Notes under the pieces: generated by a model
Told to the model about the DNA's origin: nothing
Database searches by the model: none
Seen by the model: only the letters and a program-made list of their open reading frames with translations
Assembly (NCBI RefSeq): GCF_002287075.1
Contig: NZ_NSKE01000001.1
Coordinates: 62,001 to 126,000 of the forward strand
DNA: 64,000 bases
Source of the DNA: Fodinibius salipaludis
GTDB taxonomy: Bacteria > Bacteroidota > Rhodothermia > Balneolales > Balneolaceae
Direction of reading: 5' to 3'
Shown: piece after piece, positions 9,631-57,234 of the stretch
Numbering within the stretch: the first letter of the stretch is position 1
Layout of the letters: each line of letters begins with the position of its first letter
Made by a program: the position numbers and the translations under genes

Positions 9631-9719
9631 ATGCCTCAAATATTCCGTATCCATAAAACGCTAATGCTCCTTTTTCTGTTTTATATTTGAGTTCTATTTG
9701 CAAACTATATTTTAAAATT

Positions 9720-13895: not shown

Positions 13896-14069
13896 ACCAT
13901 AAAATAAAAGATTAAAGGAGAGTGCTATGGTCCGTTGGGTATCTACTCAAAAGATCTAACTCCTACACAGGCAAAAAAAATAATCCTCTATGCCAAGCAT
14001 ATAGATTAGTGACAGTGTTTCAAAGATTTCTACCTAACTGTAATTGTTTTGTACTTACTTAAATGCCCT

Positions 14070-17000: not shown

Positions 17001-17525
17001 TCTAATTTCCAAACTTTTAAATGTTCCTTTTTGCTTGTTTGTCAACTTATTTAGGCCCTGATCAGTTGCAAGCCATACCGTGCCATCCGAATCACAATGA
17101 ACGCCATTTACAGAATTATCACTAATACTTTGCGGTCCATCTTTTTCATAAAAAAGCCTGAACTGCTCGGTTCTTATATTGAAAAAGGAAAGCCCATTTA
17201 CCGTGCTAATCCAAAGATCACTATTTGTATCTATACAAATGTCGGTAACCTGTTTATCACTAAGGCTATTATTATCAATCAAATCACTTCGGTAGACAAT
17301 CATCTGCCGGCCGTCATAGCGATTCAATCCACCGACGGTGCCAAACCACAAAAAACCTTTATCATCCTGGACAATCGAATTAACAGTTGCTTGGGATAAT
17401 CCGTCCTCGAGTCCCAGATGGGCAAACTGATAAGAATCAACTTGAGAAAAAGCAGGCAGTGCTGCTATAAAAAAAAGAACTCCCTTTAAGAATAGTACCA
17501 AAACATATTTCTTCAATCGCTTCAT
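14070..17525 (-). CDS. Reg_prop / Y_Y_Y ligand-sensing histidine kinase
   Basis: An 1151-residue inner-membrane sensor. It has a signal peptide (about 1-27), then two seven-bladed-propeller equivalents of Reg_prop repeats (about 30-690) marked by recurring LWIGT and NGLN motifs, a Y_Y_Y domain (about 725-795, including PPGAYTFRVKASNNDG), one transmembrane helix near 800-822, a coiled coil, and a kinase core with H887 in GVLHNVGNILNSV. The HATPase motifs include HILVNIFKNAKEAM and GHGFGLHSCANYM. Unlike the hybrid two-component systems of Bacteroides polysaccharide loci, it lacks a receiver and an AraC-type output domain. The phosphate must therefore pass to a separate regulator, for which the hybrid protein at 17724-19484 is a candidate. 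No sugar-uptake genes are adjacent, so the ligand is open. Confidence 0.9.
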   Translation of the reverse strand: MKRLKKYVLVLFLKGVLFFIAALPAFSQVDSYQFAHLGLEDGLSQATVNSIVQDDKGFLWFGTVGGLNRYDGRQMIVYRSDLIDNNSLSDKQVTDICIDTNSDLWISTVNGLSFFNIRTEQFRLFYEKDGPQSISDNSVNGVHCDSDGTVWLATDQGLNKLTNKQKGTFKSLEIRGEQQNFRELYRDKKGILWVGSFGAGLYYLDPEEEQFVSSELPMLDEKIVTSIHEGHGYLWVGTEAGLFRINENRTKVIIYQNTVDDHASLSNDYVNDIYQDSQSNLWIGTQNGLNLYQPDRDEFIRLKADPKDDQSLKSNRINSIYEDRHNTLWIGTQSNGISKFSYHQKGIKHYSAYPDDENSISDNNIWDFVEDENDNIWIGTDEGLNRFDPDNEQFDHFYHDPDNPNSLSNNRIYNIEIDRHRNLWISTADGLNKFDPQTERTERYLYDPDDKNSISYNILWGVDIDSSGNIWIGTRGRGLNVLNPETETFVHYNHDPNDTESLGASYVSDVFIDSRGQIWVGTQNGLNLYEPETKTFKKFPHTSENPHSLDTGIVIDIQEDANGRLWVGTIMGANVLDIESHEVLKHISLKDGLPDDIIWGITEDERGNIYMGTTLGLAVWDSETKTFNNFDKRDGLQGNEFNAGAAFTSSSGEIYMGGTNGFNKFSPSDLTGNPNPPPVVITDFQLYNESVPIKDSIEEDGERRKLLDKSITYTDTLTLSYADNVISFEFAALNFTIPEKNQYAYKLEGFDEKWNYIGNRNFVTYTELPPGAYTFRVKASNNDGVWNEEGTSLALVITPPFWQTTWFYLISALFIVGLVFTGYRLRVRSIKEYSRRLEKEVADRTDELNKKNRDLKSTLKELEETKDELVEKAHKAGMADIASGVLHNVGNILNSVNTSATVIKDTVRQSKVERLSQANELLREHIDRVEEFIAENPKGKQLLNYYLKLEEPIQKEQQKMLKQSQRLSEKVDLISEVIAAQQSYAGASIEADQASLDEMVNDALTLQSGSIERHGLTIKKDLQPIEAITAHRTQLIHILVNIFKNAKEAMVENEPEEKVIRIKTWQEDNKVHLSISDNGHGIKKENIDKIFTQGFTTKNEGHGFGLHSCANYMQSMGGKIKVESNGKGRGATFILVFPSSTNGNNSYNEKS

Positions 17526-17723
17526 ATATATGCTATAAATTTAGTAGTAGAACATAATTTCATTGATAAAAACCATTGTTTCCAGTGGTTACTGTACCTG
17601 TTTGTATATGCAATGAAATCGCAAGAAATCTGTATAGTGAATCTGTCATAAATAAATCAAATGTTACTTTTACGGATGACTCCACACTTAAAAAGTGACA
17701 AATGTATCTGTGATATTAACGTT

Positions 17724-19484
17724 TTATTTACTTAATAAACTAAAATCCATTTCTATTACTTTTTTTATTGTTTTTATCAAATCCTGTTTATCTACTGGCT
17801 TTGCAATATAGTCATCCATCCCCGCCTGTAAACATAGTTCCCGATCTTTTTCCATCGCCGAGGCCGTCAGTGCTATAACTGGAATATGCTTGTTCGTCCT
17901 CTTTTCCATTGTTCTAATTTTTTTAGTCGCCTCATACCCATCCATTTCGGGCATCTGAACATCCATTAGGATAAGATCGTACTCATTCTGCTCCAGGTAT
18001 TCTATGGCTTCAGTTCCTGTCTCAACGATATCTATAACAAAGCCTTCCTTTTCCAACATCTTGGTAGTGACCATTTGATTTACTTTATTATCCTCGGCTA
18101 CAAGAATCCTTAGCGATTTCCCAATAGACTCTACCTGGTTCTCCTCACTTTGGCTATCAGAATCAGTTCTTTTATCAGCGGCGACTTTCTCTAAGGGTAC
18201 CGTAAAATAAAAACTTGATCCCTTTCCTTCCTCACTCTCTAAACCGACCTCCGCATCCATCAAGTCTGCCAGCTGCCGGCAAATAGCCAATCCTAATCCA
18301 GTTCCTCCAAATTTTCTGGTTGTTGAGGAATCCCCTTGAGAAAAAGAGCTGAATATTTGAGATTGTTTTTCTTCAGGAATCCCGATTCCCGTATCGCTTA
18401 CAGTAAATTTGATAAGTTGTTTGTCTCCATCTGACTCTAAAAGATCCACCTCAAATGAAACATATCCCTCCTCAGTAAATTTCACGGCATTACTACCATA
18501 ATTTAGGAGTACTTGTCGCAACCGTGTTGGATCTCCTGACATCCTATTGGGAATATTATCATCAATGGAATATTTTATTGACAAGCCTTTCTCATCAGAG
18601 GATAATGAGATCATTTCTACAACTTCTTTGACAAGATTCCGAATATTAAAAGGAATATATTCGATTTCCATCTTTCCGGCTTCTACCTTTGAGAAGTTCA
18701 GGATATCGTTAATAACTCTTAATAAGGACTCTCCACTCCTTTTTGCCATTCGGGACAGCTCTTTCTGCTCTTCACTTAAATCAGTTTCCAGCAAAAGATC
18801 AGTCATCCCTATTACGCCGTTCATCGGGGTGCGTATTTCATGACTCATATTAGCAAGAAAAACACTTTTAGCAGCTGAAGCTTTCTCAGCCTTATCTTTC
18901 ATTTCCTTATACTTTTCTACTAACTCATTCAACTCACTTGTACGCTCATCCACCTCTTCCTCAAGCTTTTCGGTATAAGAAATAGCTTCCTGCTGTAACT
19001 TCCATTTTGTAGTAAGCGTTAATGCTATCTGTTTCAAAGCCGTAGCATCAAAAGGCTTCTTCATAAACAATAGCTTATCGGTATTGCCTAAATTGGAAAC
19101 GATTTTATCCCACGAGTAATCAGAATAAGCAGTACATATAACTATCTCTGTATAAGGATAATCTTCCCATATCTGTTTTATCGTTTGAATACCGTCTATA
19201 CCCGGAGGCATCCTAACATCCATAAATATAAGAGCGTAGGGATCTCCTAACTCATAAGCTTCAGACACCATTTCAACAGCTTCCTTCCCCTGATAGGCAT
19301 GATCAATTTCGTAATCAACCAAATTGTCAGTTTTTTCCTGCTCATTTGGAGAACTACCGAAAAGCTCGTCTTCTATCCCTTTTAGTTCTTCATCTTCTTT
19401 ACTGACAGAGTTAGATAAAATTGATTCTATATCCTCATGGATAGATTCATTGTCATCTACAAGTAAAATATGATTGTATCCCAT
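17724..19484 (-). CDS. REC-HisKA-HATPase-REC hybrid signalling protein
   Basis: A soluble 586-residue protein. The N-terminal receiver (about 1-150) has an acidic DDN near residue 10 and the phosphoacceptor in FMDVRMP; it is lengthened by an acidic insertion of about 30 residues (roughly 28-60). A coiled coil (165-210) precedes a classic HisKA domain (NMSHEIRTPMNGVIGMTDLL) and a HATPase with DTGIGIPEE and GGTGLGLAICRQL. A second receiver (about 450-575) has AEDNKVNQ, the acceptor in LILMDVQMPEMDGYEA, and AKPVD. There is no membrane segment, so the input should be phosphorylation of the first receiver, plausibly by one of the two kinases downstream. No DNA-binding output is present. Confidence 0.9.
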   Translation of the reverse strand: MGYNHILLVDDNESIHEDIESILSNSVSKEDEELKGIEDELFGSSPNEQEKTDNLVDYEIDHAYQGKEAVEMVSEAYELGDPYALIFMDVRMPPGIDGIQTIKQIWEDYPYTEIVICTAYSDYSWDKIVSNLGNTDKLLFMKKPFDATALKQIALTLTTKWKLQQEAISYTEKLEEEVDERTSELNELVEKYKEMKDKAEKASAAKSVFLANMSHEIRTPMNGVIGMTDLLLETDLSEEQKELSRMAKRSGESLLRVINDILNFSKVEAGKMEIEYIPFNIRNLVKEVVEMISLSSDEKGLSIKYSIDDNIPNRMSGDPTRLRQVLLNYGSNAVKFTEEGYVSFEVDLLESDGDKQLIKFTVSDTGIGIPEEKQSQIFSSFSQGDSSTTRKFGGTGLGLAICRQLADLMDAEVGLESEEGKGSSFYFTVPLEKVAADKRTDSDSQSEENQVESIGKSLRILVAEDNKVNQMVTTKMLEKEGFVIDIVETGTEAIEYLEQNEYDLILMDVQMPEMDGYEATKKIRTMEKRTNKHIPVIALTASAMEKDRELCLQAGMDDYIAKPVDKQDLIKTIKKVIEMDFSLLSK

Positions 19485-20170: not shown

Positions 20171-22849
20171 TTATTTTTGCAGAACTTCCAGATCCGGTCC
20201 ATACCCCTTCCACAGTTGTCCCACCAGAAGTGGAATTACACTCATGATAAAAACCACCCCCCAACCGGTTACCGTAGGTGGCGTAACTTTTAACACATCA
20301 CTTATCACCGGCACATAAACAGCTACAAACAGTAAGCCGGTACATAGCAGCAGCGCGGCCCAGATATAGTTATTTGTTGTTATGGTGTTATTCCAAAACC
20401 CAGAATCACTGCTTCGCATATTAAATACATGCCACAACTGGGCAAAAGCAAGTGTTAAAAATGACAACGTAACGGCCTTATCAGCCGATAGAAGCAGGTA
20501 CTCCATCCCAATAAAAAGTGAGCCGAGAACCGATAGCGTAATAATAAACGCATAACCAGCTATTCCTATCCATTCGCTACGGCCCAAGATAGGCTGTTCG
20601 GGACTGCGTGGCGACTTTTGCATAATTCCCGCTTCCCCTTCACCAACGCCCAGTGCCAAGGCCGGAAAAACATCGGTAACTAAATTCAAAAAGAGAATCT
20701 GCAGCGGTAAGATGGGTAACGCAGTGCCAATAATAGTCGCCATAGCCACCACCATAACCTCGCTTACATTGCACGACATCAGGTAGTAAATGAACCGCCG
20801 GATATTATTGAAAATTACGCGTCCCTGCTCTATTGCACTCACAATGGTAGAAAAAGCATCATCCAATAGCACCATATCCGAGGCCTCTTGTGCTACTTGA
20901 GTTCCCCGCTGCCCCATAGCAATACCAATATCAGCCTTTTTAAGAGCCGGAGCATCATTCACCCCATCGCCCGTCATCGCTACAATCTGACCTTTCTTTT
21001 GAAAGAGCTCGATAAGATCCAGTTTTTGACTGGGACTTACACGTGAAAAGACCGAGGTGTGATAGATCTCATTTGTCTCCGGGCTGTCCATTTCCAATCC
21101 TGCAATATCCGGTAAATCCCGACCATGTATGGCTTCCCGATTGTTCAGATCAATACCCACGGATTCAGCAATTGATTCAGCAGTTGCCTTTTGGTCGCCT
21201 GTTATCATAACCACTCGAATACCTGCTTGCTGACATCGAAAAATTGCAGGTTTCACGTCACTACGGGGTGGATCGCTCAGTGCCACAAGCCCTATCAGTG
21301 TTAACTCTTCGTAGGGATTCCCTTCGATCGTATCCACTGTTTTAACAGCAAACGCCAGCATGCGTAACCCCTCTCGTCCCAGCTCCAGGTTCAGTTCCTC
21401 CCATTGTTCGCGGTCCTTTTTTTGCAACGGTTGAACTTCTCCATCTACCATTACTGAACTGCAGACATCCAATACTGCCCCCGGTGCCCCTTTAACGCTA
21501 ACCCGATACTCACCGTCCTTCTTTTTATTCCAGGTAGCCATCATCTTTACATCTGCGTCAAAGGCTTCCTCTCGAATTTCCGGATATTTAGATGGGAGCT
21601 CGTCAATAACTAATCCAGCCTTTTTAGCCGCTTCTAATAAGGCAATTTCCAATGGATCGCCTGTTCCGCCTTTTTCTTGATGATACAGCGATGCGTTATT
21701 ACAGAGAACGCCGACTTCCAGAGCCAATCTAAGATCACTGTTATCTGACATCTTATGCTCAGACAAAGAAATGTCTCGATCCCCTGACAAATAAAAGCCG
21801 GTGACTGTCATTTTGTTTTCTGTCAACGTTCCGGTTTTATCCGTGCAAATAATACCGGTAGCCCCTAATGTTTCAACGGATGAGAGTCGGTTGACCAGTG
21901 CATTTTTTCTGGCCATTAACCGAATCCCTTTCGCCAGGGCAATAGTGGCTACAATAGGCAACCCTTCCGGTATTGCCGCTACCGCCAGCGCAATGCCTGT
22001 TTCGACCATCAGAAATAACTCTTTCCCTGCCCAGATCCCTGATCCTACCACAAATAGAGCTATTATTAGCGTTATTGTAATTAAGCGATAGCCAAGTTTA
22101 TCGAGTCGTTCTTCGAGCGGTGTCTGCTCTTGGTCCGCTTCTTCTACCAGCGATGAAATCGCTCCCAGTTCGGTATCTAATCCCGTTGAAACAACCACGG
22201 CCTCTCCCGATCCGCGCGTCACGGCAGTTCCTTTATAAAGCATATTATCCCGTCCAGCCAATACCGTATCTTCTGCAACCGCATCTCCCTGTTTGGAGAC
22301 CGGTAAACTTTCTCCCGTCAACGCTGACTCATCAGATTGCAGCTTGGATTGTTTAATGATGCGTAAATCAGCAGTAATAATATCACCGCCTTCGATTATA
22401 ACCACGTCTCCGGGCACCAATTCTTCGGCATCAATTTCAATGATTTTGCCTGCACGACGGACTCTTGTGCTCACTTTTCCCAGTTTAAAAAGAGCTTCCA
22501 TTGAACGAACGGCGCGCAGTTCGGTAAAAAATCCGATGACGGTATTAATTACAATTACGGCCACAATAGCCCAGCCGTCCACATATTCTCCCAACCAAAA
22601 TGCAAAGAGTGCTGCAGTAGCCAAAAGTACAATGATGATACTTTTAAGCTGATTGATGAGGATCTCTACGATACCCCGCTTCTTATGCTTGCGAAGCTGG
22701 TTTGGGCCAAATTTTTGTTGGCGCTGCCTAACTTGTTTTGATGACAGTCCGTGTTTCGAATCAACCTCTAAGACGCCAAGAACATCTGCAATATCAAGCG
22801 CCCAAGGTTGTTTATCAAAGAAAGGATTGGTTTCTACCGGCCTGTCCAT
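20171..22849 (-). CDS. SERCA-like Ca2+-transporting P-type ATPase
   Basis: An 892-residue P2-type ATPase. The actuator motif LTGES, the phosphorylation site D337 in CTDKTGTLTEN and the hinge TGDGVNDAPA are all intact. Residues that bind calcium in SERCA are matched: AAIPEGLP in helix M4, NVSE in M5 and NLVTD in M6. This favours calcium over sodium or proton export. The N-terminal cation-transporter domain (about 10-70) and the C-terminal four-helix block are normal in length. It lies 43 bases downstream of the CheB-like gene on the same strand, at the 3' end of the stress island, and may be cotranscribed with it. Related pumps sit in stress regulons of other bacteria; that role here is inferred. 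Confidence 0.9.
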   Translation of the reverse strand: MDRPVETNPFFDKQPWALDIADVLGVLEVDSKHGLSSKQVRQRQQKFGPNQLRKHKKRGIVEILINQLKSIIIVLLATAALFAFWLGEYVDGWAIVAVIVINTVIGFFTELRAVRSMEALFKLGKVSTRVRRAGKIIEIDAEELVPGDVVIIEGGDIITADLRIIKQSKLQSDESALTGESLPVSKQGDAVAEDTVLAGRDNMLYKGTAVTRGSGEAVVVSTGLDTELGAISSLVEEADQEQTPLEERLDKLGYRLITITLIIALFVVGSGIWAGKELFLMVETGIALAVAAIPEGLPIVATIALAKGIRLMARKNALVNRLSSVETLGATGIICTDKTGTLTENKMTVTGFYLSGDRDISLSEHKMSDNSDLRLALEVGVLCNNASLYHQEKGGTGDPLEIALLEAAKKAGLVIDELPSKYPEIREEAFDADVKMMATWNKKKDGEYRVSVKGAPGAVLDVCSSVMVDGEVQPLQKKDREQWEELNLELGREGLRMLAFAVKTVDTIEGNPYEELTLIGLVALSDPPRSDVKPAIFRCQQAGIRVVMITGDQKATAESIAESVGIDLNNREAIHGRDLPDIAGLEMDSPETNEIYHTSVFSRVSPSQKLDLIELFQKKGQIVAMTGDGVNDAPALKKADIGIAMGQRGTQVAQEASDMVLLDDAFSTIVSAIEQGRVIFNNIRRFIYYLMSCNVSEVMVVAMATIIGTALPILPLQILFLNLVTDVFPALALGVGEGEAGIMQKSPRSPEQPILGRSEWIGIAGYAFIITLSVLGSLFIGMEYLLLSADKAVTLSFLTLAFAQLWHVFNMRSSDSGFWNNTITTNNYIWAALLLCTGLLFVAVYVPVISDVLKVTPPTVTGWGVVFIMSVIPLLVGQLWKGYGPDLEVLQK

Positions 22850-22892: not shown

Positions 22893-24029
22893 CTAAAATA
22901 AATATTTGGTATTTATTGCATCTTTTTCGCGGCTAATATATTCGATATCACTACCAAGCTTGGAATATTTAATTAATTGATTCGTAATATCTTGCGGAGT
23001 GCAATATGTTTTTGTTATTCCTTTTGAAATAGTTGACAAAGGAAGATCAGGAATAATAGAAGACCGGGGATCCTGAACGATAACTTGTCCGGAGTGATTT
23101 TTAATTTCTTCAGCCCCACTTAATCCATCACTCCCACAACCGCTTAGCAATACTCCAAGAACCTTATTGCCACTTACTTTAGCTGCAGAACGAAATAATA
23201 CATCAATAGATGGACGCATATTATTTTCTCGGGGACCGCGACATATCGAAGCCTCAATAGTTGAAGCAGACTTGGAAATTTCACACTGATATCCACCGGT
23301 TGCAATATATGCAGTACCGGCCTCCAAGGGTTCGCCGTTCTCTACTTCTTTGACAGATATTTTGCAAACTGAATCTAAAGAAGTAGCCAAATACTCAGTA
23401 TACGTCCGTGGAAGATGTTGAACAATAACCAAAGGTATTGCCAAATCTTTGGGCAATTTACTCAATATTGAAAATAGTGTCAGCACTCCTCCGGTACATC
23501 CACCTATTACGGCAACTTCAATTGGCTGTGGCTCTTTAACTTCGGCACTAAAATCCCCAAAACTTTTCTGCGGCTGGGTTAACGACTCGAGCATCATATC
23601 ATCTATATTCTGATGCTTTTTCATTTTGTAAACGGCCTTAAGTAAAGGCTCCAATCGTTTTTTAAGATGCCGTTCTGCAAATAGAATCAGATTATTTGAT
23701 TCCGGTTTGGTTACAAAGTCAATGGCCCCCAGTCGTAGCGCTGTTATTGCCGCTTTTGCTCCACCTTCGTTGCGGGGACTTATGACAATTACCGGCAAGT
23801 TGCTGAATGAAGTCTGTACTTTCTGCAATATATCTAACCCTTCGCCCTCAATATCATCGATGCTCAACAGAACAATATCGGGTGCTACGTTACGAATAAC
23901 TGTTTCTACCGTATCAAACGCGTCATTCAACCAAAACATACGGTACTCTTCACGCTGTTCAAGAATGGTTGTTATTGCTCTTCTGACAAGAATATTTTTA
24001 TCGATGATTAATACATTTACGATATCCAT
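22893..24029 (-). CDS. Atypical CheB-like protein (pseudo-receiver plus methylesterase-like domain)
   Basis: A 378-residue protein with the CheB layout: receiver-like domain (about 4-115), linker, and CheB methylesterase-like domain (about 170-360). In the receiver the phosphoacceptor aligns with S56 (PDIVLLSIDD where CheB has PDVITLDVEM), and the second acidic residue of the usual DD pair is K11. The distal TKP lysine is kept. In the esterase domain the nucleophile motif reads IGGC178TGG where CheB has IGASTGG, so Ser is replaced by Cys. The other triad positions, H205 (VQHLP) and D301 (GCGSDG), are kept. No methyl-accepting protein, CheR, CheA or CheW is encoded nearby. It may be a thiol hydrolase or a non-catalytic regulator; that it demethylates chemoreceptors is doubtful. 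Confidence 0.85.
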   Translation of the reverse strand: MDIVNVLIIDKNILVRRAITTILEQREEYRMFWLNDAFDTVETVIRNVAPDIVLLSIDDIEGEGLDILQKVQTSFSNLPVIVISPRNEGGAKAAITALRLGAIDFVTKPESNNLILFAERHLKKRLEPLLKAVYKMKKHQNIDDMMLESLTQPQKSFGDFSAEVKEPQPIEVAVIGGCTGGVLTLFSILSKLPKDLAIPLVIVQHLPRTYTEYLATSLDSVCKISVKEVENGEPLEAGTAYIATGGYQCEISKSASTIEASICRGPRENNMRPSIDVLFRSAAKVSGNKVLGVLLSGCGSDGLSGAEEIKNHSGQVIVQDPRSSIIPDLPLSTISKGITKTYCTPQDITNQLIKYSKLGSDIEYISREKDAINTKYLF

Positions 24030-24163: not shown

Positions 24164-27100
24164 CTATTCCTCTATAATGATGCTTAAATGATAATCTCCT
24201 GAAGTATTCGGAATTGAACATGTCACGACGTCATTTTTTGAAGAAACCGGCGACCCATTCAACAAGGCAGTAATTGTTCCCTTGGATAATTTATTGGGAT
24301 TCAATATTTCGATATGCAACTCAACATCATGTCCTTTATTACTAATCCAACACTCGTACTTTTTCCACGAGGAAATAACAGTGGGCTTAATCTCAATGTT
24401 AATTCCATCAACAAAAGTTATACCTAAAATGGATTCCAGTATCACGCGATACATCCATCCCGCCGAGCCGGTATACCAGGTCCAACCTCCCATTCCCACT
24501 AACGGATGTTCTCCATAGATATCAGCCGCAACAGCATAAGGCTCAACTTGATAACACTCTACATCTATATTATTTAAAGCATGATTGACAGGCAAAAGCA
24601 TCTTCATATATGAGATAGCCTTTTCGACTTGTCCTGCTTCTGCAAATGCTTTGACCAACCACAACGCGGCATGAGTATATTGACCTCCATTTTCGCGAAT
24701 GCCCGGGATATACCCTTTGATGTAACCGGGATTTTTCTCGGTTTGGTCAAAAGCCGGTGTCAGTAATTTTATTATACCATCCTGCTTCGATACCAAATGC
24801 TGTTCGGCAGCAAATAGTGCTTTTTCTGTTTTAGCAGGTGTTCCGGCTCCGGAAATAACCGACCATGCCTGGGCAATTGCATCTATGCGACACTCATCAT
24901 TTTGGGATGACCCCAGTGGGGTGCCGTCATCATAATAAGCCCGCCGGTACCATTCTCCGTCCCATCCCTCCTCATTGAGATGTTTTTCCAGATCTTCTTT
25001 ATAGGTGCTGTATCTATCCAGTCTCTCCTTGTCATTGTAAGTCTTAACAATCGGAATAAAATCGTTCAAGATAGTGTAAAGGAAAAATCCCAGCCAGATG
25101 CTTTCGCCCTTACCATCAACACCTACTTTATTCATGCCGTCATTCCAGTCCCCGCCACCAATTAAAGGCAACCCATGTGCTCCCTTTGTTAACGAGCGGT
25201 CAATAGCCCGACAGCAGTGCTCGTATAAGGATCCCTGTTGATCTGATACCTCCGGCTGCAAGTAAACCTCATGCTCTCCTTCATACAATTGACGCGCCTT
25301 TAAAAAAGCAACCTGTTCATCCAAAATAGCATTGTCGCCTGAATTTTTAATATAAAAAGCCGTTGTATAGGGCAGCCAAAGCAGATCATCGGTAATGATT
25401 GATCGAATACCCCGATCGGTCGGTGGATGCCACCAATGCAGTACATCTCCCTCCTCAAACTGATGAGCAGCATGCAATAGAATTTGTTTGCGGGTTAGCT
25501 TGGGATCCAAATAGCAAGCGGCCGTAGCATCCTGCAGCTGATCCCGAAATCCAAATGCCCCACCTGCTTGATAAAAACCGGTACGTCCCCACATTCGGCA
25601 GGCTATATTCTGATATTGCAGCCAGCCATTCATTAACACGTTTAATTCCGGTTCCGGAGTCTTAACTTGGATGCCACCGAGTTTCTCGCGCCAAAAAGTC
25701 TTGACCTCCCTAAGTGATTGTTCTATAGTTTCAATATCCTGATATTTGCTGATCAGCGTTACCCCCTCCTCATGATGCTGTACTTCTCCCAAATAAAAAT
25801 AAATATCGGCAGTTTCGCCCGATTTTAGTTCCAGAGAAAACTGATGGGCCGCACATGATTCAAACCTCATCCCAAAACGTCCATTTAAGGCCATATCCCT
25901 TCTAACCGCTTTTGGATTTTGTAAATTTCGATTACGTCCAATAAATGCTTGTCGATCGGAGGAATAAGAAACCGAGTAGATATCATGCTCCGTTGTAAAG
26001 CCGGAGAATGCTACTCGTCCCGCAAATTCATTGTTGTAATGGTTGCGCGCAAAGATGGTTTGCATCTTTTCATCAATGGAGGTTATAATCTCACGGGTCG
26101 CATGCTCTCTGAATACCCCCAGAACCAAATCTTTATACTCTAACAACGTCAACTTTTTATCCATCAACCCTTCATTTGATAGCCTAAGTTTTACAAACTT
26201 AATTGGGTCGTCTTTGTCCACCCACGTACTTACCTCCTGCTCTATATTCATGGTTGTACTTCGATAGGTTGAATATCCGTGCCCATGCCTGACTTCATAA
26301 TTAGTACTACCCGGTACCGGCTGTGGCATAGGCGACCAAAATAGTTTTTCGTCTTCATCCCGTATATAAATAGCCTCCCCGGATGGATCCAACACCGCAT
26401 CATTAGACCAAGGAGTAAGCTTATTCTCTCGACTATTTTTACTCCAGGTGTATGCAGATCCCTTTTCGGTTGTCAAAAAACCAAAATGCGGATTGGCTAT
26501 AACATTGATCCACGGCGCCGGTGGAAAGAGCAACTCTTTGGTATCCGGATCGGTCCGGAGGGTGATAATATACTCACGGCCGTTGGTAGAAAAACCACCG
26601 TAACTGTTATAAAACAATAAACCATCACCAATATCACTGGACTCATTCCCAGCCCCAACATGTTCAACCGGTTTGTATATTGATTTAAATTTTTCAGTTA
26701 TTTCTATCTGATTCTGCTCTTTCAACTGCGTAAGATCGGGCAGTTTTCCTGTAAGGACTACATGAGCTACGGTATTAATAAGGATGTTATCTTCTCGGCT
26801 CAACTCATCACTTCGGAGGATAAAAACTCCACCTTTTTCTTGCTGCGTATGACGTTCAGTGGTTTGCTGTAACTGCTGTTGGATTAATTCCTGGAGTTCA
26901 TTGACATACGATGGCGGATGATCGTTCATAAAAAATAAATCAACTTTCAAGCCACGTTGACGCCAAAAATGATGAGCTTTTAGTAGTAGTGTTACCTCCC
27001 GCATAAACTTTTTATCATCAATATGATATACTAAAATGGGTGCATCACCGGAAATTCCATGAGCCCAAAGACCCGACTGTGTTTTTCTGTTTTGCGTTAA

Positions 27101-30100
27101 TGTATTTTCCTTAGCTCGCAAGGCTTCGCAATTATACACAAGATACCCCGTGAGATGCTGAATATACTGGGCTTGTTCACCGCTTAGTCCTACATGTTCC
27201 AACTCTACATTGCCATAGATAGAAGCAAGTTCAAAAACACGATCCGTAGCGTAGATATTATCATATTGATCCCCCATAGCCACCGCTTCATCACGGTTGG
27301 CAACCCTTCCTAATCCAAAGGTAATATTCTTTTTCTCCCCTGGATCAAGTGTTATTACCCTTCGAATACTCACAATAGGATCTTTCACATTACCAACCGA
27401 GCCGCTGAGTCTTTCTCCTTTATCCAAAACCCGAGGATTCTGCATGGAGCGGTTTCGCCCAATAAATTGACCACGATCTGTTTCAATCTGAAGCTCCTCG
27501 GAAAAACTGTCCGCATCTTCACTGGCGATAGTATGTACCAGCCAAATGGGATCCTCATCTTCTGCTCGCGGACGTCGTTTTGCCAATATTGAATGATGTT
27601 CTTGCAGGTATTCTGTTTGAACAAATAAATTTGAAAATGCTGGATGGGCCCGGTCGGCCTGTTGGGTATTTAAAACGACTTCAGCGTAACTGGTAATTTC
27701 AATCTGGCGTTTACGTTCCGAATAGTTTGTCAACGTTATTTTTCGCAGCTCTATGTTGTCTTCGGGCGAAACACAGACCTCCAAAAATGTTTCAATCCAG
27801 TCATCTACACGAGCAATCTGCACTTTCCCTGCATGAAACCATGTATCATATCGGTCAGCCTGGCGTTTAACCGGTTGATGCCCGGCCGACCAGTAATTAC
27901 CACTTTCCAAATCTCGAATATAGAAAAACATGCCATAGTGATCGGTTACTACATCCGGTTGCCATCGGGTAAGCATGACATCATTGGTATAAGAGTAGCC
28001 CGTTCCCGAATGGGTTATCAACGTCGAATAACCTCCATTGGAAAGAACATGTGTTCGGGGCGGAGTATTATCCAGATCCTCTATACTGGCATGATCCACT
28101 ACATTTTTAGCGCGCTCCTCTTCGGCCGGTTCAAGCTCCACATCAATAGGACGTGGCTCCTTAATGGGAATTCCTCGTGGAATTCGTTCTTGTAAAAGCA
28201 GCTCACAGGAACGAACCAAGGGGTGATCATGGAATAATTGTTGCACGCGGTTATTATCCAATACATTTAAGAGAGCCAATAGACTCATACCCTGGTGATG
28301 AGCCATATACATTTTCACTACGGCATTGTTATCATCCCCAGAAAGGTGACGAGGCGTATAGTCCAAAGCTTCATAAAAACCATTTGCCCCATAAACGCCC
28401 TCATCTCGCAATTTTCGAAGGTTTTTAAGCGCTTGTTTAGGATCCACCATCAGCGCGAGCATGCCAGCGTAAGGTGCCACCACATAATCCTCAGCCAATC
28501 CCCGGCGTAACCCAAGCCCCGGCACACCAAATGCGCGGTATTGGTAATGCAATTCCAAGTTACGCACGTTATATCCGCTTTCCGAAAATCCCCAGGGCTT
28601 ATTCCGCAAAGAACCATAATTCCGCTGCCAAAGAACCACATTTTCGTAGGTGTTACTGAGCAGCGTATTTTCAAATTGGGACATAAACAGCAGCGGCATC
28701 AAATATTCAAACATGGTACCGCCCCAGGAAAGCAGAATTTCGTTGCGTTCAATACTTGTCAGTCTTCGACTTAGCCGAAACCAGTGTTTGGGTGGTACTT
28801 CGCCCTTTGCTATCGCAATAAACGATGCCAGACGGGCCTCACTGGCCAACAGATCATAATAACTATTATCCTGATGGGCCCGATCTACATTATAACCAAT
28901 ACTAAATAACTCACGGTCGGAATCATACACCAGCGAAAAGTCCATCTCTTCCACCATCTCCCGACAAGTACGGCTCAATTTGGAAGCCCTTAAAAGGAGA
29001 TTAGCATACACACTGGTATTAAGCGTGTCTTTGTTAATTGATGCTTTGCTATTTACGGCCCCGAACTTCTCGATTTCATCCAGTTGGCCCTCGATCTGAA
29101 TCAACGGACGTTGAAGCCAATCGCTCCATTCATGATTAAGCAGATCTTCCAATGAATATTCTAAGATGCCGGCTGAAAGTTGATCAAGCTTTTTAGCATC
29201 CTCACGTAACGCTATCAAGCTCTCCTTCCAAGTTTCGATGGATTCGGGAGCACTATCGGGAATTTCGTCGTTCATTCTCTTTGTAATAGCAATCACTTCA
29301 TCTGCAACTCCTTTGTAATTGCCACTTTGCTTAAGCTCAGAAAACAGATCCTGCAAAACCTGTATAGTATCGTGTAAACCGACCCAAAACGCTGGATTTG
29401 GCCAAGTCCGTTTATCAAGTTGATGCAATGCCTGTTCAACGACCAACAGTGCTGCCGCCAAATTTCCCGAATCAACGGTGGATACATATTTGGGATTCAA
29501 TACGTCTCCTAATCTCGTACTGTACCAGTTATAGAAATGTCCGCGATACCGATCGAGCTCCCCCATTGAGGTAAGCATTTTATCAAGAAGGTTAACCATT
29601 TCGGTTAGTGTTAGATAACCCATCTCAAAAGCCGAATAGACCGCTGTAAGTGCAAGCCCCATATTTGTCGGGGATGTACGTCCAACCGCCCCGATGTAGG
29701 GTTCTTCCTGCACGTTATCGGGAGGCAGCCAAGAGTGTTCTTCATTAACATATTGCTCAAAGAAATGCCATGTTCTGCGAGCATATTGCCGTAACTCTTG
29801 GTACTGTTTGGATGATAATACTCGCTTTTCAGTTTTAAGGGGACGACTCAAAAAGTACGTCACATAGGGCGCCAAAAACCAACCCAAACATATAGGAACG
29901 GCAATAAATAAAACGGAGGTGCTGAATATACTTACCAATGCTAAACAAAGCCCTCCCCATATAATATTCGGGGTCATCTTTAGCCAATAATCCCATTGTG
30001 ATCCATCAGCATGTTCTTTCTCAACCTGTGTGGCGGTAGTCCATTCCAATAAATGGTTTTGAGTTTTAAACAGACGATAAAGTGTTCTTAAAATGGCATC

Positions 30101-32776
30101 CAGCGAAATAAAAGCCTGATGTGGGAGGTTTAAAAAGCTTGTTACCGCCTGAATGGTATTTACCTTAATATCAACACGAACGGTATCCAGATACAGGCGC
30201 CATCCTACCCGTTGTGGACGGCGAAAAATATCGGTTGAGAAACTGGAGTAAATAGGAAAGGCCACAATGCCAAAAACGGCGGCGGTCCATATCAACGCAG
30301 AACCGGGCAGAAAAATCCATCCGGCTAATAAAAAAAGTAACAATGCCACAGGATTTAGGGATCGGCGCAGATTATCAAATATTTTCCATCTTGATATACT
30401 GTTTATCGGGTTGTGTTCCTTTTTATTATCCCCTTTGGGCACCCTTCCAAACAACCAAAATAAAATTTGCCAATCGCCCCGGATCCACCGGTGTAGCCGC
30501 TTTGAAAAACTTAAATAGGTTGTGGGATAGTCATCAAAAAGTTCAATATCAGTCAATAAAGCCGCTCGCAGATATGTACTCTCCAACAAGTCATGCGATA
30601 AGATGCGATTCTCCGGAAAACGATCGCCAAGTACCTCTTCAAAAACATCCAGATCGTAAAGCCCCTTGCCGGTAAAAACCCCTTCACCAAAAACATCTTG
30701 ATAGATATCAGAGACAGCAGTGGTATAGGGATCAAGGCCAACATTGCCAGAGTATATTTTAGTAAACATGGTTTTGTTGGCCGATTTGGGCGGGATGGAA
30801 ATACGAGGCTGAAATATTCCGTATCCCTTAGTTACAATCTTTTTATCGGGATCTATTTCTGCTCGATTAAGTGGGTGGGCAGCAGTACCAATCAGCATTT
30901 GAGCACTACCCGGAGGCAGCTTCGTATCGGCATCGAGCGTAATTACATATTTAACCGGGAATTTTTGTGTTGATATTAAAAAGTCTTTCGGTTTTTCGAT
31001 GAAGCTCGTTTGGGCATCCTTATTTTTTATAAGTCGATTAAATTCTTCGATTTTACCGCGCTTACGTTCCCAGCCCATCCACTTCTGCTCTGAATCATTC
31101 CATAAACGCTTTCGGTGGAAAAACAGGAACTTATGACCATATTTACTATGATACTGCAGGTTCAATCGATTAATCTGCTGACGTGCGGTTTTTAAAATGG
31201 CTTCATCCTTCTCTCTTGTCTCAGATTTGGCATCAAGAAAATCCGAAATAATAGCAAACTGGAGTGATTCGTTGGCATTAGCCAAGGCACGAATTTCGAG
31301 TAGCTCAAACTGCGCTTCCACATCAGCAGGTGATGAAAACATGGTTGGCACAATTACTACAGTTCGATACTGATCGGGAATATCTTCTTTGAATTCAAGT
31401 TTTGGCAAAATGCGGGGCGGAATTAGAAAAGACAACAATCGATTGGCAGAAACAATGGATAAATCGAAAGCTGGCAGCCAGGATATAACCAACGTGAGAA
31501 TAATCATCCAGATTTCGCGAGCCAACAAATTGGTGACAAGTCCAATAGTGCCAAGTAAAACAATAAAATGGATCCCGATGAAGGAGTAATAAATTGCGGG
31601 ATACTCTTCTGCCAGCTGGCGCAAGCGTTCATCAATAGGTTTTTGATAGGAGAGTTTTTGACACAAATCGGCATAACCATCATCAATAAGATAGTAGCCG
31701 ATATGCATTTTTTTACTTCGCTGTTTCGTACCGTTCTGGGCAGCACTTTCAGCCATCATCAGCGCTCGTTCAGCCACCTTCTGTTCGCTGAAAGTTGAGT
31801 GGGAGCTGATCTTTTCTACTATTTTACGGTACCGATCGCGCGTGCTAAAATCCATGCGAGGATATATGTCGGCGGGATCAAGTCGTAGGATACGTTCGAC
31901 AATAGAACAGCTCTCTACAAAAACGGACCAGTCGGTTTCTGAAACTTCGCGTAAAGATGATATGGCATTTTGAATACTTAAGTGCAGCCGAGAGGTCTGC
32001 TGGATTCGGCCCCGGAGCTGCTCCTCAAGATTAGTTTCCCAGCGTGAAAGTTTATAATCGAACCAGCGGCGTTCATTTTCGGTAAACATACCGCGCGACT
32101 GCAGACGCTGGGCTAAAATCACTAAATAGCGTATGGAGTCAGGCTGCTCATCAACAATTTCGGATAATTTACGTAACAAAAATCCAGGTTCCTCGATATT
32201 ATCCGATATTTGATCGCTTAACACTGCATCAATGTCATCCTGAATTTTGCGATCTCGGAGAAGCTTTTTACTTCGCTCGGCCAACCGCACTATCAAAGTT
32301 AACCTATTCATAAGCGGTACCGACCACATCTCGGCCAGATTTAGAATATCTACTTCCTGGTAAGCCCGAATAGCAATGGTGGTATTCTTCTGATCAATGA
32401 TATTATCACTAATTGATGCCAGCAGCTGTATAATCTCATATGTTCTTGGATACCCTTTAAATTCGCCTTGAGTCAATCGAGGCAATTTTTCGTAATACGA
32501 CTTAGGTAAATCCGCCTGCAGCTGTACAATCTGCTCCTGGATAATATAAAAGTTGTCAATCAACCATTCCCCTGCCGAACTCAATTCCTGATTGAGCTTT
32601 GCCGCCCGCGCCAATACTTTATAGGTTTTAGTGAGGGTCTTTTTGGCCGTCAGTAATGTTTCACCAATAGATTGTATGGGGCCAGTATCACGCGTAATCT
32701 GTTGCAATTCAGCGAGTTGACGTATCTCTTCTTTCAGATATTGCTTATTAAAATGGACCTGTGTTTCTGTAGCCAT
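24164..32776 (-). CDS. ndvB: Cyclic beta-1,2-glucan synthase
   Basis: A 2870-residue membrane enzyme, close in size to Rhizobium NdvB and Brucella Cgs. It should polymerise glucose from UDP-glucose, then cyclise and release beta-1,2-glucan into the periplasm. After a helical N-terminal region, hydrophobic segments occur near 400-455, 800-850 and 950-1010. They flank a GT84 glycosyltransferase domain with D615-A-D617 (LDADTKLPPG) and RLHRWIRGDWQ. A glycoamylase-like segment follows (about 1250-1500). The C-terminal half holds GH94-type phosphorylase modules with GGGDWNDGMN, where D2546 is the expected general acid and sets chain length. All these blocks look intact. Upstream by 90 bases is a DUF5335 gene; the CheB-like gene lies 134 bases downstream. 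Osmoprotection or envelope roles are known for the product in Proteobacteria and are inferred here. Confidence 0.93.
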   Translation of the reverse strand: MATETQVHFNKQYLKEEIRQLAELQQITRDTGPIQSIGETLLTAKKTLTKTYKVLARAAKLNQELSSAGEWLIDNFYIIQEQIVQLQADLPKSYYEKLPRLTQGEFKGYPRTYEIIQLLASISDNIIDQKNTTIAIRAYQEVDILNLAEMWSVPLMNRLTLIVRLAERSKKLLRDRKIQDDIDAVLSDQISDNIEEPGFLLRKLSEIVDEQPDSIRYLVILAQRLQSRGMFTENERRWFDYKLSRWETNLEEQLRGRIQQTSRLHLSIQNAISSLREVSETDWSVFVESCSIVERILRLDPADIYPRMDFSTRDRYRKIVEKISSHSTFSEQKVAERALMMAESAAQNGTKQRSKKMHIGYYLIDDGYADLCQKLSYQKPIDERLRQLAEEYPAIYYSFIGIHFIVLLGTIGLVTNLLAREIWMIILTLVISWLPAFDLSIVSANRLLSFLIPPRILPKLEFKEDIPDQYRTVVIVPTMFSSPADVEAQFELLEIRALANANESLQFAIISDFLDAKSETREKDEAILKTARQQINRLNLQYHSKYGHKFLFFHRKRLWNDSEQKWMGWERKRGKIEEFNRLIKNKDAQTSFIEKPKDFLISTQKFPVKYVITLDADTKLPPGSAQMLIGTAAHPLNRAEIDPDKKIVTKGYGIFQPRISIPPKSANKTMFTKIYSGNVGLDPYTTAVSDIYQDVFGEGVFTGKGLYDLDVFEEVLGDRFPENRILSHDLLESTYLRAALLTDIELFDDYPTTYLSFSKRLHRWIRGDWQILFWLFGRVPKGDNKKEHNPINSISRWKIFDNLRRSLNPVALLLFLLAGWIFLPGSALIWTAAVFGIVAFPIYSSFSTDIFRRPQRVGWRLYLDTVRVDIKVNTIQAVTSFLNLPHQAFISLDAILRTLYRLFKTQNHLLEWTTATQVEKEHADGSQWDYWLKMTPNIIWGGLCLALVSIFSTSVLFIAVPICLGWFLAPYVTYFLSRPLKTEKRVLSSKQYQELRQYARRTWHFFEQYVNEEHSWLPPDNVQEEPYIGAVGRTSPTNMGLALTAVYSAFEMGYLTLTEMVNLLDKMLTSMGELDRYRGHFYNWYSTRLGDVLNPKYVSTVDSGNLAAALLVVEQALHQLDKRTWPNPAFWVGLHDTIQVLQDLFSELKQSGNYKGVADEVIAITKRMNDEIPDSAPESIETWKESLIALREDAKKLDQLSAGILEYSLEDLLNHEWSDWLQRPLIQIEGQLDEIEKFGAVNSKASINKDTLNTSVYANLLLRASKLSRTCREMVEEMDFSLVYDSDRELFSIGYNVDRAHQDNSYYDLLASEARLASFIAIAKGEVPPKHWFRLSRRLTSIERNEILLSWGGTMFEYLMPLLFMSQFENTLLSNTYENVVLWQRNYGSLRNKPWGFSESGYNVRNLELHYQYRAFGVPGLGLRRGLAEDYVVAPYAGMLALMVDPKQALKNLRKLRDEGVYGANGFYEALDYTPRHLSGDDNNAVVKMYMAHHQGMSLLALLNVLDNNRVQQLFHDHPLVRSCELLLQERIPRGIPIKEPRPIDVELEPAEEERAKNVVDHASIEDLDNTPPRTHVLSNGGYSTLITHSGTGYSYTNDVMLTRWQPDVVTDHYGMFFYIRDLESGNYWSAGHQPVKRQADRYDTWFHAGKVQIARVDDWIETFLEVCVSPEDNIELRKITLTNYSERKRQIEITSYAEVVLNTQQADRAHPAFSNLFVQTEYLQEHHSILAKRRPRAEDEDPIWLVHTIASEDADSFSEELQIETDRGQFIGRNRSMQNPRVLDKGERLSGSVGNVKDPIVSIRRVITLDPGEKKNITFGLGRVANRDEAVAMGDQYDNIYATDRVFELASIYGNVELEHVGLSGEQAQYIQHLTGYLVYNCEALRAKENTLTQNRKTQSGLWAHGISGDAPILVYHIDDKKFMREVTLLLKAHHFWRQRGLKVDLFFMNDHPPSYVNELQELIQQQLQQTTERHTQQEKGGVFILRSDELSREDNILINTVAHVVLTGKLPDLTQLKEQNQIEITEKFKSIYKPVEHVGAGNESSDIGDGLLFYNSYGGFSTNGREYIITLRTDPDTKELLFPPAPWINVIANPHFGFLTTEKGSAYTWSKNSRENKLTPWSNDAVLDPSGEAIYIRDEDEKLFWSPMPQPVPGSTNYEVRHGHGYSTYRSTTMNIEQEVSTWVDKDDPIKFVKLRLSNEGLMDKKLTLLEYKDLVLGVFREHATREIITSIDEKMQTIFARNHYNNEFAGRVAFSGFTTEHDIYSVSYSSDRQAFIGRNRNLQNPKAVRRDMALNGRFGMRFESCAAHQFSLELKSGETADIYFYLGEVQHHEEGVTLISKYQDIETIEQSLREVKTFWREKLGGIQVKTPEPELNVLMNGWLQYQNIACRMWGRTGFYQAGGAFGFRDQLQDATAACYLDPKLTRKQILLHAAHQFEEGDVLHWWHPPTDRGIRSIITDDLLWLPYTTAFYIKNSGDNAILDEQVAFLKARQLYEGEHEVYLQPEVSDQQGSLYEHCCRAIDRSLTKGAHGLPLIGGGDWNDGMNKVGVDGKGESIWLGFFLYTILNDFIPIVKTYNDKERLDRYSTYKEDLEKHLNEEGWDGEWYRRAYYDDGTPLGSSQNDECRIDAIAQAWSVISGAGTPAKTEKALFAAEQHLVSKQDGIIKLLTPAFDQTEKNPGYIKGYIPGIRENGGQYTHAALWLVKAFAEAGQVEKAISYMKMLLPVNHALNNIDVECYQVEPYAVAADIYGEHPLVGMGGWTWYTGSAGWMYRVILESILGITFVDGINIEIKPTVISSWKKYECWISNKGHDVELHIEILNPNKLSKGTITALLNGSPVSSKNDVVTCSIPNTSGDYHLSIIIEE

Positions 32777-32866: not shown

Positions 32867-33193
32867 TTAACGAATATCGATGATACTTTTCTCCCCGTCA
32901 CGGCGAATCACCATCATTCCGGTAAGCCAGCCGTTATCCTCTTCATTTACGTATATCTCTTGGGGATGCGAGATAAGGTGATCCAATTTATCAATCTGTA
33001 TTTCAAGAATATCACTTTTGGGGTCATAAGCGATGCCCTTTAAAGGCGTCCATGTAATTTCATTTTGTACTCCTATATCCTCTGAAAGCACTTGAATCTC
33101 AATATACTCCGGCTGTTCATCTTTCAGATATCTAATAGAAAAAGAGTCGAAATACTTTTGCCACTCTTGCTTGCTTATTTTCTTGGATTCCAT
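32867..33193 (-). CDS. DUF5335 family protein
   Basis: A 108-residue protein, started at the ATG at 33193 (MESKKISKQEWQKYF); the longer frame would begin at a TTG. The pattern KQEWQ.YFD.FS at the start, the central acidic PLKGIAYDPKSDILEI and the C-terminal IRRDGEKSIIDI match the DUF5335 family, which has no known activity. Homologues I recall occur beside stress-response genes such as Hsp20 and universal-stress proteins, and that is the setting here. The gene precedes the cyclic glucan synthase by 90 bases on the same strand and may be the first gene of that operon. Its upstream DNA carries motifs shared with neighbouring promoters. Confidence 0.7.
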   Translation of the reverse strand: MESKKISKQEWQKYFDSFSIRYLKDEQPEYIEIQVLSEDIGVQNEITWTPLKGIAYDPKSDILEIQIDKLDHLISHPQEIYVNEEDNGWLTGMMVIRRDGEKSIIDIR

Positions 33194-33475
33194 AACGCCC
33201 CTCTGTACTAATGTGTTCAAAGAATTGAATTATAGATAGGTATAAAAAAACGACGATTATTACCTACAGGTAATACCCCACTTCACTGTCAGTTTTTTCA
33301 CTACAAAGGACTGGTCGCTTGCTTATAATTTAATCTCTGTTACGGTTGGATTAGCAAAAGGGTTGAACTTGTGTTTTAAGAAATGCATAAGCCAAATTCG
33401 AAAAGCCAGATAAAATGCTTGTCAATAATAAAATCGAAGTTCTTCCAAAGTAAATATCAACCTCTCTTCTTGATA

Positions 33476-34231
33476 TTATTGATCTTCAAGAGATTCCAAA
33501 GGGAGGGTACAAGTTACGCAAGTGCTGTAACCATCTTCTTTAGCATCTTTGATCCGCAGGGAACCACCTATTACTTCTGCCCGATGCTTCATAATCGTTA
33601 TTCCCATACCACCACTGCCATTCTTCGAATCTAATCCACTGCCGTCATCTTTTACGTGTAAATATAACTGTTGCTCATGTTCAATAAGAACAATTTTAAT
33701 ATTATTAGCCTTTCCATGATTAATGGCATTTTTAATTGCTTCTTGGGTAATATGGTAAAGATTGGTTGCTACTTTTCTGCTATTTATCTTGTGAAGGATT
33801 TCATCAGTCTGTAATCTACACTTGATATTATGCTGATTTTCAACCTGTCTTTTTAAATGGTTTAAAGCCTTTTCGACGCCTTCCTTTTCTACATCCAAGG
33901 GAATGATATCATGCGATAAATCCCGAACCTCTCGGAGACTCTCATCAATTATATTGATTATTTCATTGCAGATTTCTGATAAGTTTTCTTTTGAGAGCTC
34001 ATCCCTGAGAATACAAACAGAAATTTTTGCAGAGGCCAACTGCTGAGCCAGATCATCATGAAGATAGGTCCCGATCTTCCAGCGTTCTATAAGACTCTTA
34101 TTTGCCAGTGCTTTTTTATATTTTCTATTTTTCTCTTCTTGTATTTTTAGCTTTTCCTTTAGCTTTTTATTCTTCTCTTTTAGCTTATCAAGATCATTAT
34201 ATTCATTATTGCTCTCTTTTGATATAACCAT
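33476..34231 (-). CDS. Cytosolic HisKA_3 sensor histidine kinase
   Basis: A 251-residue kinase without membrane segments or PAS domain. A highly charged coiled coil occupies residues about 8-45. It is followed by the HisKA_3 box YLHDDLAQQL with H58, then a NarX-type HATPase: N-box HITQEAIKNAINHG and G-boxes KDDGSGLD and GGMGITIMKHRAE. It lacks an input domain, so it may sense through protein contact or act as a second phosphate donor for the NarL-type regulator at 35213. It has the same orientation as the surrounding genes but is separated from hsp20 by a terminator. Confidence 0.85.
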   Translation of the reverse strand: MVISKESNNEYNDLDKLKEKNKKLKEKLKIQEEKNRKYKKALANKSLIERWKIGTYLHDDLAQQLASAKISVCILRDELSKENLSEICNEIINIIDESLREVRDLSHDIIPLDVEKEGVEKALNHLKRQVENQHNIKCRLQTDEILHKINSRKVATNLYHITQEAIKNAINHGKANNIKIVLIEHEQQLYLHVKDDGSGLDSKNGSGGMGITIMKHRAEVIGGSLRIKDAKEDGYSTCVTCTLPLESLEDQ

Positions 34232-57210: not shown

Positions 57211-57234
57211 AGATTTACTTTTATCTATTGAAAG

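Follow-up and report, generated by a model that had tools for sequence, protein, structure and literature searches.

A conserved CheB-derived paralogue clade with cysteine in the nucleophile position, linked to cyclic glucan synthase genes in Balneolaceae

Our study concerns a CheB-like gene in a 64,000-nucleotide stretch of the Fodinibius salipaludis genome (the window), whose product carries a serine where the receiver domain of CheB is phosphorylated and a cysteine where the methylesterase domain has its nucleophilic serine. The locus raises the question of whether this protein is a CheB altered by error or drift, an ordinary chemotaxis enzyme that tolerates the changes, or a member of a distinct family, and whether the two replacements belong together. 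The gene stands apart from chemotaxis genes, as the initial annotation had pointed out: no MCP, CheR or other CheB match adjoins the gene, and Pfam places a glucan synthase upstream and a P-type cation ATPase downstream (Table 1). The synthase-like neighbour combines GH94 supersandwich, GH94 catalytic and Glycoamylase domains (Pfam); we take it to be a cyclic beta-glucan synthase and give it the name NdvB. The best NCBIfam match of the ATPase is to the PMR1-type Ca ATPase, at 645 of 798 bits and so below the cut-off.

Table 1. Features of the CheB-like locus in the window and of the related gene in genome G411 (positions of the latter refer to its own locus).
Feature	Position	Strand	Details
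CheB-like gene	22893..24029	(-)	ATG start, 378 aa; receiver and CheB_methylest domains; Cys in nucleophile slot
Receiver domain, residues 6-114	23688..24014	(-)	Pfam Response_reg; degenerate acidic pocket D10, K11, S56
Codon 56, phospho-acceptor slot	23862..23864	(-)	AGC, Ser
CheB methylesterase domain, residues 174-352	22974..23510	(-)	Pfam CheB_methylest
Codon 178, nucleophile slot	23496..23498	(-)	TGT, Cys
Codon 205, catalytic His	23415..23417	(-)	40/40 in clade
Codon 301, catalytic Asp	23127..23129	(-)	40/40 in clade
Cyclic glucan synthase-like (NdvB-like) gene	24164..32776	(-)	2870 aa; upstream neighbour, 134-bp gap
P-type cation ATPase gene	20171..22849	(-)	892 aa; downstream neighbour, 43-bp gap; Pfam E1-E2_ATPase, Cation_ATPase
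DUF5335 gene	32867..33220	(-)	117 aa; upstream of glucan synthase; Pfam DUF5335, 92.5 bits
Cys CheB-like gene in G411 (locus L213)	2-940		Directly downstream of its own glucan synthase; 3' end cut by contig end

Residues and fold of the CheB-like protein

Read by position, the protein has D10, K11, S56, S84 and K108 in its receiver and C178 (in the motif IGGCTGG), H205 and D301 in its enzyme domain, and the codons AGC and TGT confirm Ser56 and Cys178 as they were first called. With the lysine in place and neither a DD pair nor a phospho-acceptor aspartate, the receiver falls short of the phosphorylatable set. In CheB, phosphorylation of the receiver aspartate is described as opening the enzyme, and an S164A change as inactivating it (PMC8609364); as the window protein has neither the acidic pair nor the aspartate, such a switch cannot operate there as it normally does, in agreement with the early claim that the usual phosphorylation site is lost. 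The catalytic residues that M-CSA assigns to CheB 1A2O are D, H, M, S and T (PMC11796326). Besides the histidine and the aspartate, the window protein keeps the threonine (Thr179), and the methionine position is taken by C298.

Both domains are recognized by their Pfam models, Response_reg at 51.9 bits (cut-off 30.2) and CheB_methylest at 173.1 bits (cut-off 24). The curated NCBIfam model for CheB, NF001965, gives the window protein 254.2 bits, below its cut-off of 293, and the canonical CheB of the same host 439.9 bits; four other members of the clade described below score 267, 205, 194 and 177 bits, the last being a protein cut by a contig end. An AlphaFold2 model built from 19 clade sequences (pLDDT 85.3, pTM 0.85) was compared with known structures by alignment to Foldseek's best 1000 chains. 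The model superposes over its whole length on CheB 6ymz (Z 41.8, 2.2 A, 327 residues), as expected for the CheB-like protein first described, and on CheB 1a2o (Z 40.1, 2.8 A, 329 residues); its enzyme domain fits 3sft at 1.3 A over 188 residues. By descent and by its modelled fold, the window protein is a CheB. Because it misses the curated CheB model, and because the serine, the phosphorylation site, the active-site methionine and the chemotaxis setting all fail, it is filed as a variant paralogue family and not as CheB.

Extent of the clade and history of the two changed sites

A protein search across 92 genomes of Balneolaceae and a profile search across 128 genomes of the order, which take in the same 92, place the window protein in a paralogue clade set off by a clean gap in score: 41 matches reach at least 325 bits in 35 of the Balneolaceae genomes, and the next, at 268 bits or less, are canonical CheB. 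The clade thus occurs in 35 of the 92 Balneolaceae genomes, and in addition in one genome of another family (G411). Its members, some of which come from Fodinibius strains, share 28-74% identity with the window protein; the three nearest orthologues (74, 67 and 56%) carry S56 with C178, and the fourth (51%) has N56 with C178. Whole-gene dN/dS lies between 0.12 and 0.17 in five clade pairs and that of single domains between 0.08 and 0.17, single values being rough because synonymous distances are near 1 in four of the five pairs; the two pairs that include the window gene, whose frame is open, give 0.13 and 0.17. On these ratios the clade is under purifying selection.

The cysteine form was also sought more widely. 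A scan of 84,980 species genomes with a single peptide pattern gave 414 stretches encoding relatives, and of these the best 80 were taken, 15 from Balneolaceae and 65 from elsewhere. Within these best 80 of 414, the CheB loci outside Balneolaceae have a serine nucleophile in all 65 cases (54 by alignment, 11 by motif), and the 54 aligned loci also have the aspartate in 54, the threonine in 54 and the methionine in 53, with one gap. A limitation of the cysteine form to one family is overturned by G411, a class-level relative with the cysteine form beside NdvB, whose gene is either the oldest branch of the clade or part of a transferred pair. Searches of the order and the phylum used thresholds of 1e-60 and 1e-84, at which genes cut by contig ends could be missed, and a class search with the G411 protein gave matches outside Balneolaceae, among those listed, down to 9e-26. 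Two candidates for further members outside Balneolaceae, in G343 and G491, were rejected as canonical CheB by motif; the neighbours of the former resemble CheA and CheW by eye. Among the matches listed from the open-access literature there was no paper on a cysteine CheB or on a gene cluster of CheB-like protein and NdvB.

Residues were tabulated for 40 full-length members from 34 genomes, with two partial proteins, one of them a cysteine form, excluded. The nucleophile slot holds Cys in 35 members, Ser in 4 and Gly in 1, all but one thus having Cys or Ser; the phospho-slot holds Gly in 24, Asp in 8, Ser in 5, Glu in 2 and Asn in 1. The histidine and aspartate of the triad, noted at the outset as retained in the window protein, are present in every member (H205 and D301, 40/40 each) and are two of only 15 invariant positions in the clade; R272-P273-S274 is likewise kept in 40/40. 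The first position of the DD pair is Asp in 30 members (Glu in 9, Ala in 1) and the second in a single one, and K108 is kept in 37. By comparison, the 13 aligned canonical CheB proteins of Balneolaceae have all three receiver aspartates and the serine nucleophile without exception. The CheB active-site methionine is found in 0/40 clade members and the threonine in 12/40, and the serine is replaced in 36/40; the pocket is therefore altered, and catalysis may have been lost or may differ. A second cysteine, at position 298 near the catalytic aspartate, is confined to the window protein and four relatives (5/40). The single glycine (GGT) belongs to an NdvB-linked member on a long branch (L050 in G014, 9377-10462), and the same genome also holds a cysteine member of a second branch (L048).

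Trees were built without columns 56 and 178. Support for the clade is 100/100 with 40 rows and 100/99 with G411 added as a 41st; the placement of G411 outside the other 40 receives only 85/59, its branch being long and its composition odd. G411 and the whole of a 27-row group have cysteine in the nucleophile slot, and serine is met only within a 13-row Fodinibius-like group, where it forms two pairs; a cysteine member nests with one of these (99/96 and 99/97). The tree needs at least four changes of the nucleophile and at least six in the receiver slot. Constraining the four serine rows together is not rejected (p-AU 0.078), which leaves one or two returns to serine. The codons point the same way: the nucleophile is TCN in 13/13 canonical CheB genes, and in the clade cysteine is TGY, and serine AGT in 4/4. 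Exchange between TCN and AGY is reported to need two changes (PMC6872785), and a single step leads from the cysteine codon to either AGY or TCY. As AGY makes up 31-36% of serine codons in the background, the codons back the tree without proving it. Together, AGT in the clade against TCN in canonical CheB suggests that the clade's serine was probably regained from cysteine and is not ancestral. On this path, TCN serine would have given way to TGY cysteine at the root of the clade, and the Fodinibius group would later have gone back to serine, as AGT, once or twice. Brenner reportedly proposed in 1988 that active-site serines encoded by AGY and by TCN may have had a common cysteine ancestor.

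The receiver slot followed another course. In the window's own group, G009 has Asn there (AAC) and the following four members have Ser (AGC/AGT), a pattern that fits a path from Asp through Asn to Ser; Gly predominates elsewhere. On the trees and the residue table, the cysteine is old in the clade and the phospho-aspartate was lost by several routes. The initial annotation had described the two residues as replaced together. This describes the window protein and its nearest relatives well and fails for the clade, where the nucleophile and receiver sites changed independently, making S56 and C178 separate events. The combinations in the 40 members are Cys/Gly 24, Cys/Ser 5, Ser/Asp 4, Cys/Asp 3, Cys/Glu 2, Cys/Asn 1 and Gly/Asp 1; cysteine is shared across the clade, the phospho-aspartate persists in 8/40, and a coupled double replacement is rejected by both table and trees. 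Close homologues retaining Asp56 and Ser178 had been named as the sign that would mark the changes as recent drift or read errors. Four such proteins do exist, in the Fodinibius group at 34-40% identity, and by tree and AGT codon their serine is likelier to derive from cysteine.

Linkage to NdvB and separation from chemotaxis

Members assigned to an ndvB-linked type, by tree branch or adjacency, occur in 29 genomes, and NdvB is present in 29/29. Conversely, 3 of the 32 genomes with NdvB have no CheB-like match (G082, G085, G105), an association with a Fisher value of 7e-21 when genomes are counted as independent; in G085 and G105 the contigs continue for 1.8 and 0.8 kb beyond the synthase, with no CheB-like frame there, and in G082 the synthase fills its contig. 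Of the 12 same-genus genomes, G006 alone has no CheB-like gene, and it also lacks NdvB and gives no MCPsignal match. NdvB lies within three genes and on the same strand in 26 of the 29 ndvB-linked loci, among which a universal stress protein is found at 13, a cation ATPase at 13 and DUF5335 at 10, several flanks being cut by contig ends. Neighbours around NdvB were listed over all frames, with L034 and L035 as positive controls. Of nine other NdvB stretches of the class (L211, L212, L214-L220), one stops at the end of the synthase, and the other eight run at least 4 kb past it with no CheB-like frame.

A second branch of the clade comprises 12 loci (L048, L147, L148, L150-L154, L156, L177-L179), all with cysteine and a receiver glycine and none at NdvB. 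In 9/12 the second gene upstream, on the opposite strand, is of NuoB type and stands at the start of a complex I operon; complex I subunits at these loci are confirmed by Pfam in L048 only.

Several further observations concern the surroundings. At locus L174 (G101, C4:298525-307141) the CheB-like gene is open, and the match to the glucan synthase next to it is broken across two reading frames. Downstream of the ATPase, window positions 12450-19484 hold consecutive genes for a MASE2 kinase, a propeller/Y_Y_Y kinase and a hybrid kinase with receivers, the last two having counterparts in G004 (L035) and none in the G008 stretch examined (L034). The sole tandem repeat reported in the window (34122-34186, period 21, 3.1 copies) lies within a small histidine-kinase gene (33476-34231), and positions 56167-58416 and 51149-54301 carry genes for galactose-1-phosphate uridylyltransferase and galactokinase and for an AcrB-type efflux pump. 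A promoter and terminator scan gave sites no more numerous than in shuffles, and PADLOC gave no match among the three proteins tried.

The host genome has MCPsignal proteins and CheR, and its other CheB domains belong to a canonical CheB with a CheR gene close upstream (L051) and to a CheB-CheR protein of 1083 aa (L052). Across the family, MCPsignal is found in 25 of 92 genomes. Among the 35 clade-bearing genomes chemoreceptors are present in 13, and the remaining 22 gave no MCPsignal match, 15 of these being at least 90% complete. Four genomes (G001, G008, G014, G102) have the ndvB-linked type with neither MCPsignal nor CheR above cut-off; in G008, which holds the closest relative (74%) and is 100% complete, the clade protein is the sole CheB domain, and both MCPsignal and CheR are absent. 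The ndvB-linked type is commoner with MCPsignal (13/25 genomes) than without it (16/67; p 0.013), or, counted the other way, MCPsignal occurs in 13/29 ndvB-linked genomes and 12/63 others, an enrichment that may be explained by shared ancestry. We are highly confident that the clade is real, conserved and not chemotactic.

Proposed activity, rival readings and known systems

With His and Asp invariant and Cys or Ser in nearly every nucleophile slot, the simplest reading is a working thiol enzyme with its control elsewhere. We regard it as rather likely that the window protein is a CheB-derived paralogue acting as a thiol hydrolase or transferase, free of phosphorylation and chemotaxis and working with the glucan-synthase, stress and cation-ATPase cluster. 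Judged point by point, catalytic activity of the clade protein as a thiol enzyme seems somewhat more probable than its absence, and action on the glucan-synthase cluster is a tentative suggestion, not quite probable. In our model, H205, held by D301, would deprotonate C178, and the resulting thiolate would attack an ester or amide carbonyl; the acyl-enzyme could then be resolved by water, giving an esterase or deamidase, or by another acceptor, giving a transferase. The substrate would probably be a protein or product of the neighbouring envelope and osmotic-stress cluster. The receiver may persist as a fixed lid or docking surface; if it is no longer a phospho-switch, regulation would fall to a partner protein, to the redox state of C178 or to the level of gene expression. 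The part of the initial annotation that foresaw a thiol nucleophile plausibly still catalytic is thus supported by the residue table, and its coupling to the receiver change is not.

Among other readings, a sequencing error or recent drift in one genome is ruled out: nothing was found in its favour, Cys178 is present in 35/40 and a residue other than Asp56 in 32/40 proteins from 34 genomes, and the open frame and dN/dS values of the window gene's pairs speak of a maintained gene. It is very improbable that we are dealing with an ordinary chemoreceptor methylesterase that tolerates a Ser-to-Cys change. Such a reading draws on the fold and family match, on the MCPsignal proteins and CheR of the host and on the mild enrichment of the ndvB-linked type with MCPsignal; it has to contend with the host's separate canonical CheB with a CheR gene close by, with the 22 of 35 genomes without an MCPsignal match, four of them (G001, G008, G014, G102) also without CheR, and with a score of 254 bits against a cut-off of 293, where the canonical protein reaches 440.

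Two readings that leave chemotaxis aside deserve more weight. The clade could consist of pseudoenzymes, non-catalytic CheB-fold scaffolds or regulators in which Cys, His and Asp are structural leftovers, as the glycine in one nucleophile slot, the loss of the active-site Met in 40/40 and of Thr in 28/40, and the degenerate receiver might suggest. Free drift, however, should yield other residues in the slot and cost some members the His or Asp, and across 28-74% identity the slot is Cys or Ser in 39/40 with both partners invariant; we consider this reading somewhat unlikely. Alternatively, C178 could be an oxidisable or metal-binding thiol of a redox or ligand sensor that controls the synthase or the ATPase and is not a nucleophile at all. 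The stress-type neighbours (universal stress protein and cation ATPase, each at 13/29 loci) and Cys298 near the catalytic aspartate in the window protein and four relatives would suit a sensor, but Cys298 occurs in just 5/40, and a redox thiol should not tolerate the serine that four members have in its place, which makes a sensor distinctly unlikely. The thiol enzyme is the preferred reading.

The geometry of the triad gives this thiol enzyme a wider interest. According to a survey of triads beyond peptidases, the rule for Ser triads is an N-epsilon configuration, to which CheB is one of three N-delta-configured exceptions, and N-delta looks a handicap for Ser and not for Cys (PMC9825947). 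The same survey describes engineered Cys-to-Ser changes in N-delta triads that abolished activity and a few natural switches of this kind in the C1 family, and its account of N-delta Cys triads in non-peptidases names transferases only (PMC9825947). If the N-delta geometry published for CheB is kept, as we assume for the cysteine clade, the rule favours the change from Ser to Cys and the later return to Ser runs against it, so that the clade tests the rule and a transferase reaction is worth testing. A more specific scenario, which we hold to be unlikely in full, would have the N-delta CheB triad changed to Cys and reset to Ser (TCN-TGY-AGT), with the cysteine form acting as an acyl- or similar transferase on the glucan synthase, its product or a stress-cluster partner in the absence of a phospho-switch.

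Several known systems share single traits with the clade. CheB itself (1a2o, 6ymz, 3sft) has the same order of receiver and methylesterase, the same full-length fold as the model and the same His and Asp; in contrast, the window protein has a cysteine nucleophile, no DD pair or phospho-Asp, a replaced Met and a score below the NCBIfam cut-off, and the clade lies away from chemotaxis genes and is kept in genomes without a chemoreceptor match. The label 'chemotaxis protein CheB' on clade genes would therefore mislead. Response regulators with pseudo-receivers have a receiver fold without the phospho-acceptor, as does the window protein; they differ from the clade in that its output domain has an enzyme fold, with the nucleophile exchanged, and 8/40 of its members keep the aspartate. 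The deamidase 2F9Z, presumably a CheD-type, receptor-modifying enzyme, resembles the clade in its Cys nucleophile and differs in fold, the window protein being CheB by descent. A published table enters 2F9Z under protein-glutamate methylesterase as well, with residues C, H and T and no relation to CheB (PMC11796326).

The clade would thus represent a two-component output enzyme that has kept its fold, shed its phospho-switch and its tie to chemotaxis, and become linked to cyclic glucan synthesis. The closest parallel to its nucleophile exchange is in the Ser/Cys switches of the C1 family (SERA5, congopain, EnCL and the silicateins), which likewise take place in an N-delta triad (PMC9825947). 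Those switches run from Cys to Ser in another fold, whereas the clade appears to have gone from Ser to Cys and then back in the fold of CheB. Since the CheB triad is a published exception to the Ser-triad rule, the clade makes that rule testable: the Cys, regained-Ser and outgroup canonical-Ser forms of one active site offer a natural measure of the rule and of the cost of exchanging Ser and Cys, and, set beside the C1-family switches, a natural experiment, in salt-loving bacteria, on how enzymes swap their reactive atom.
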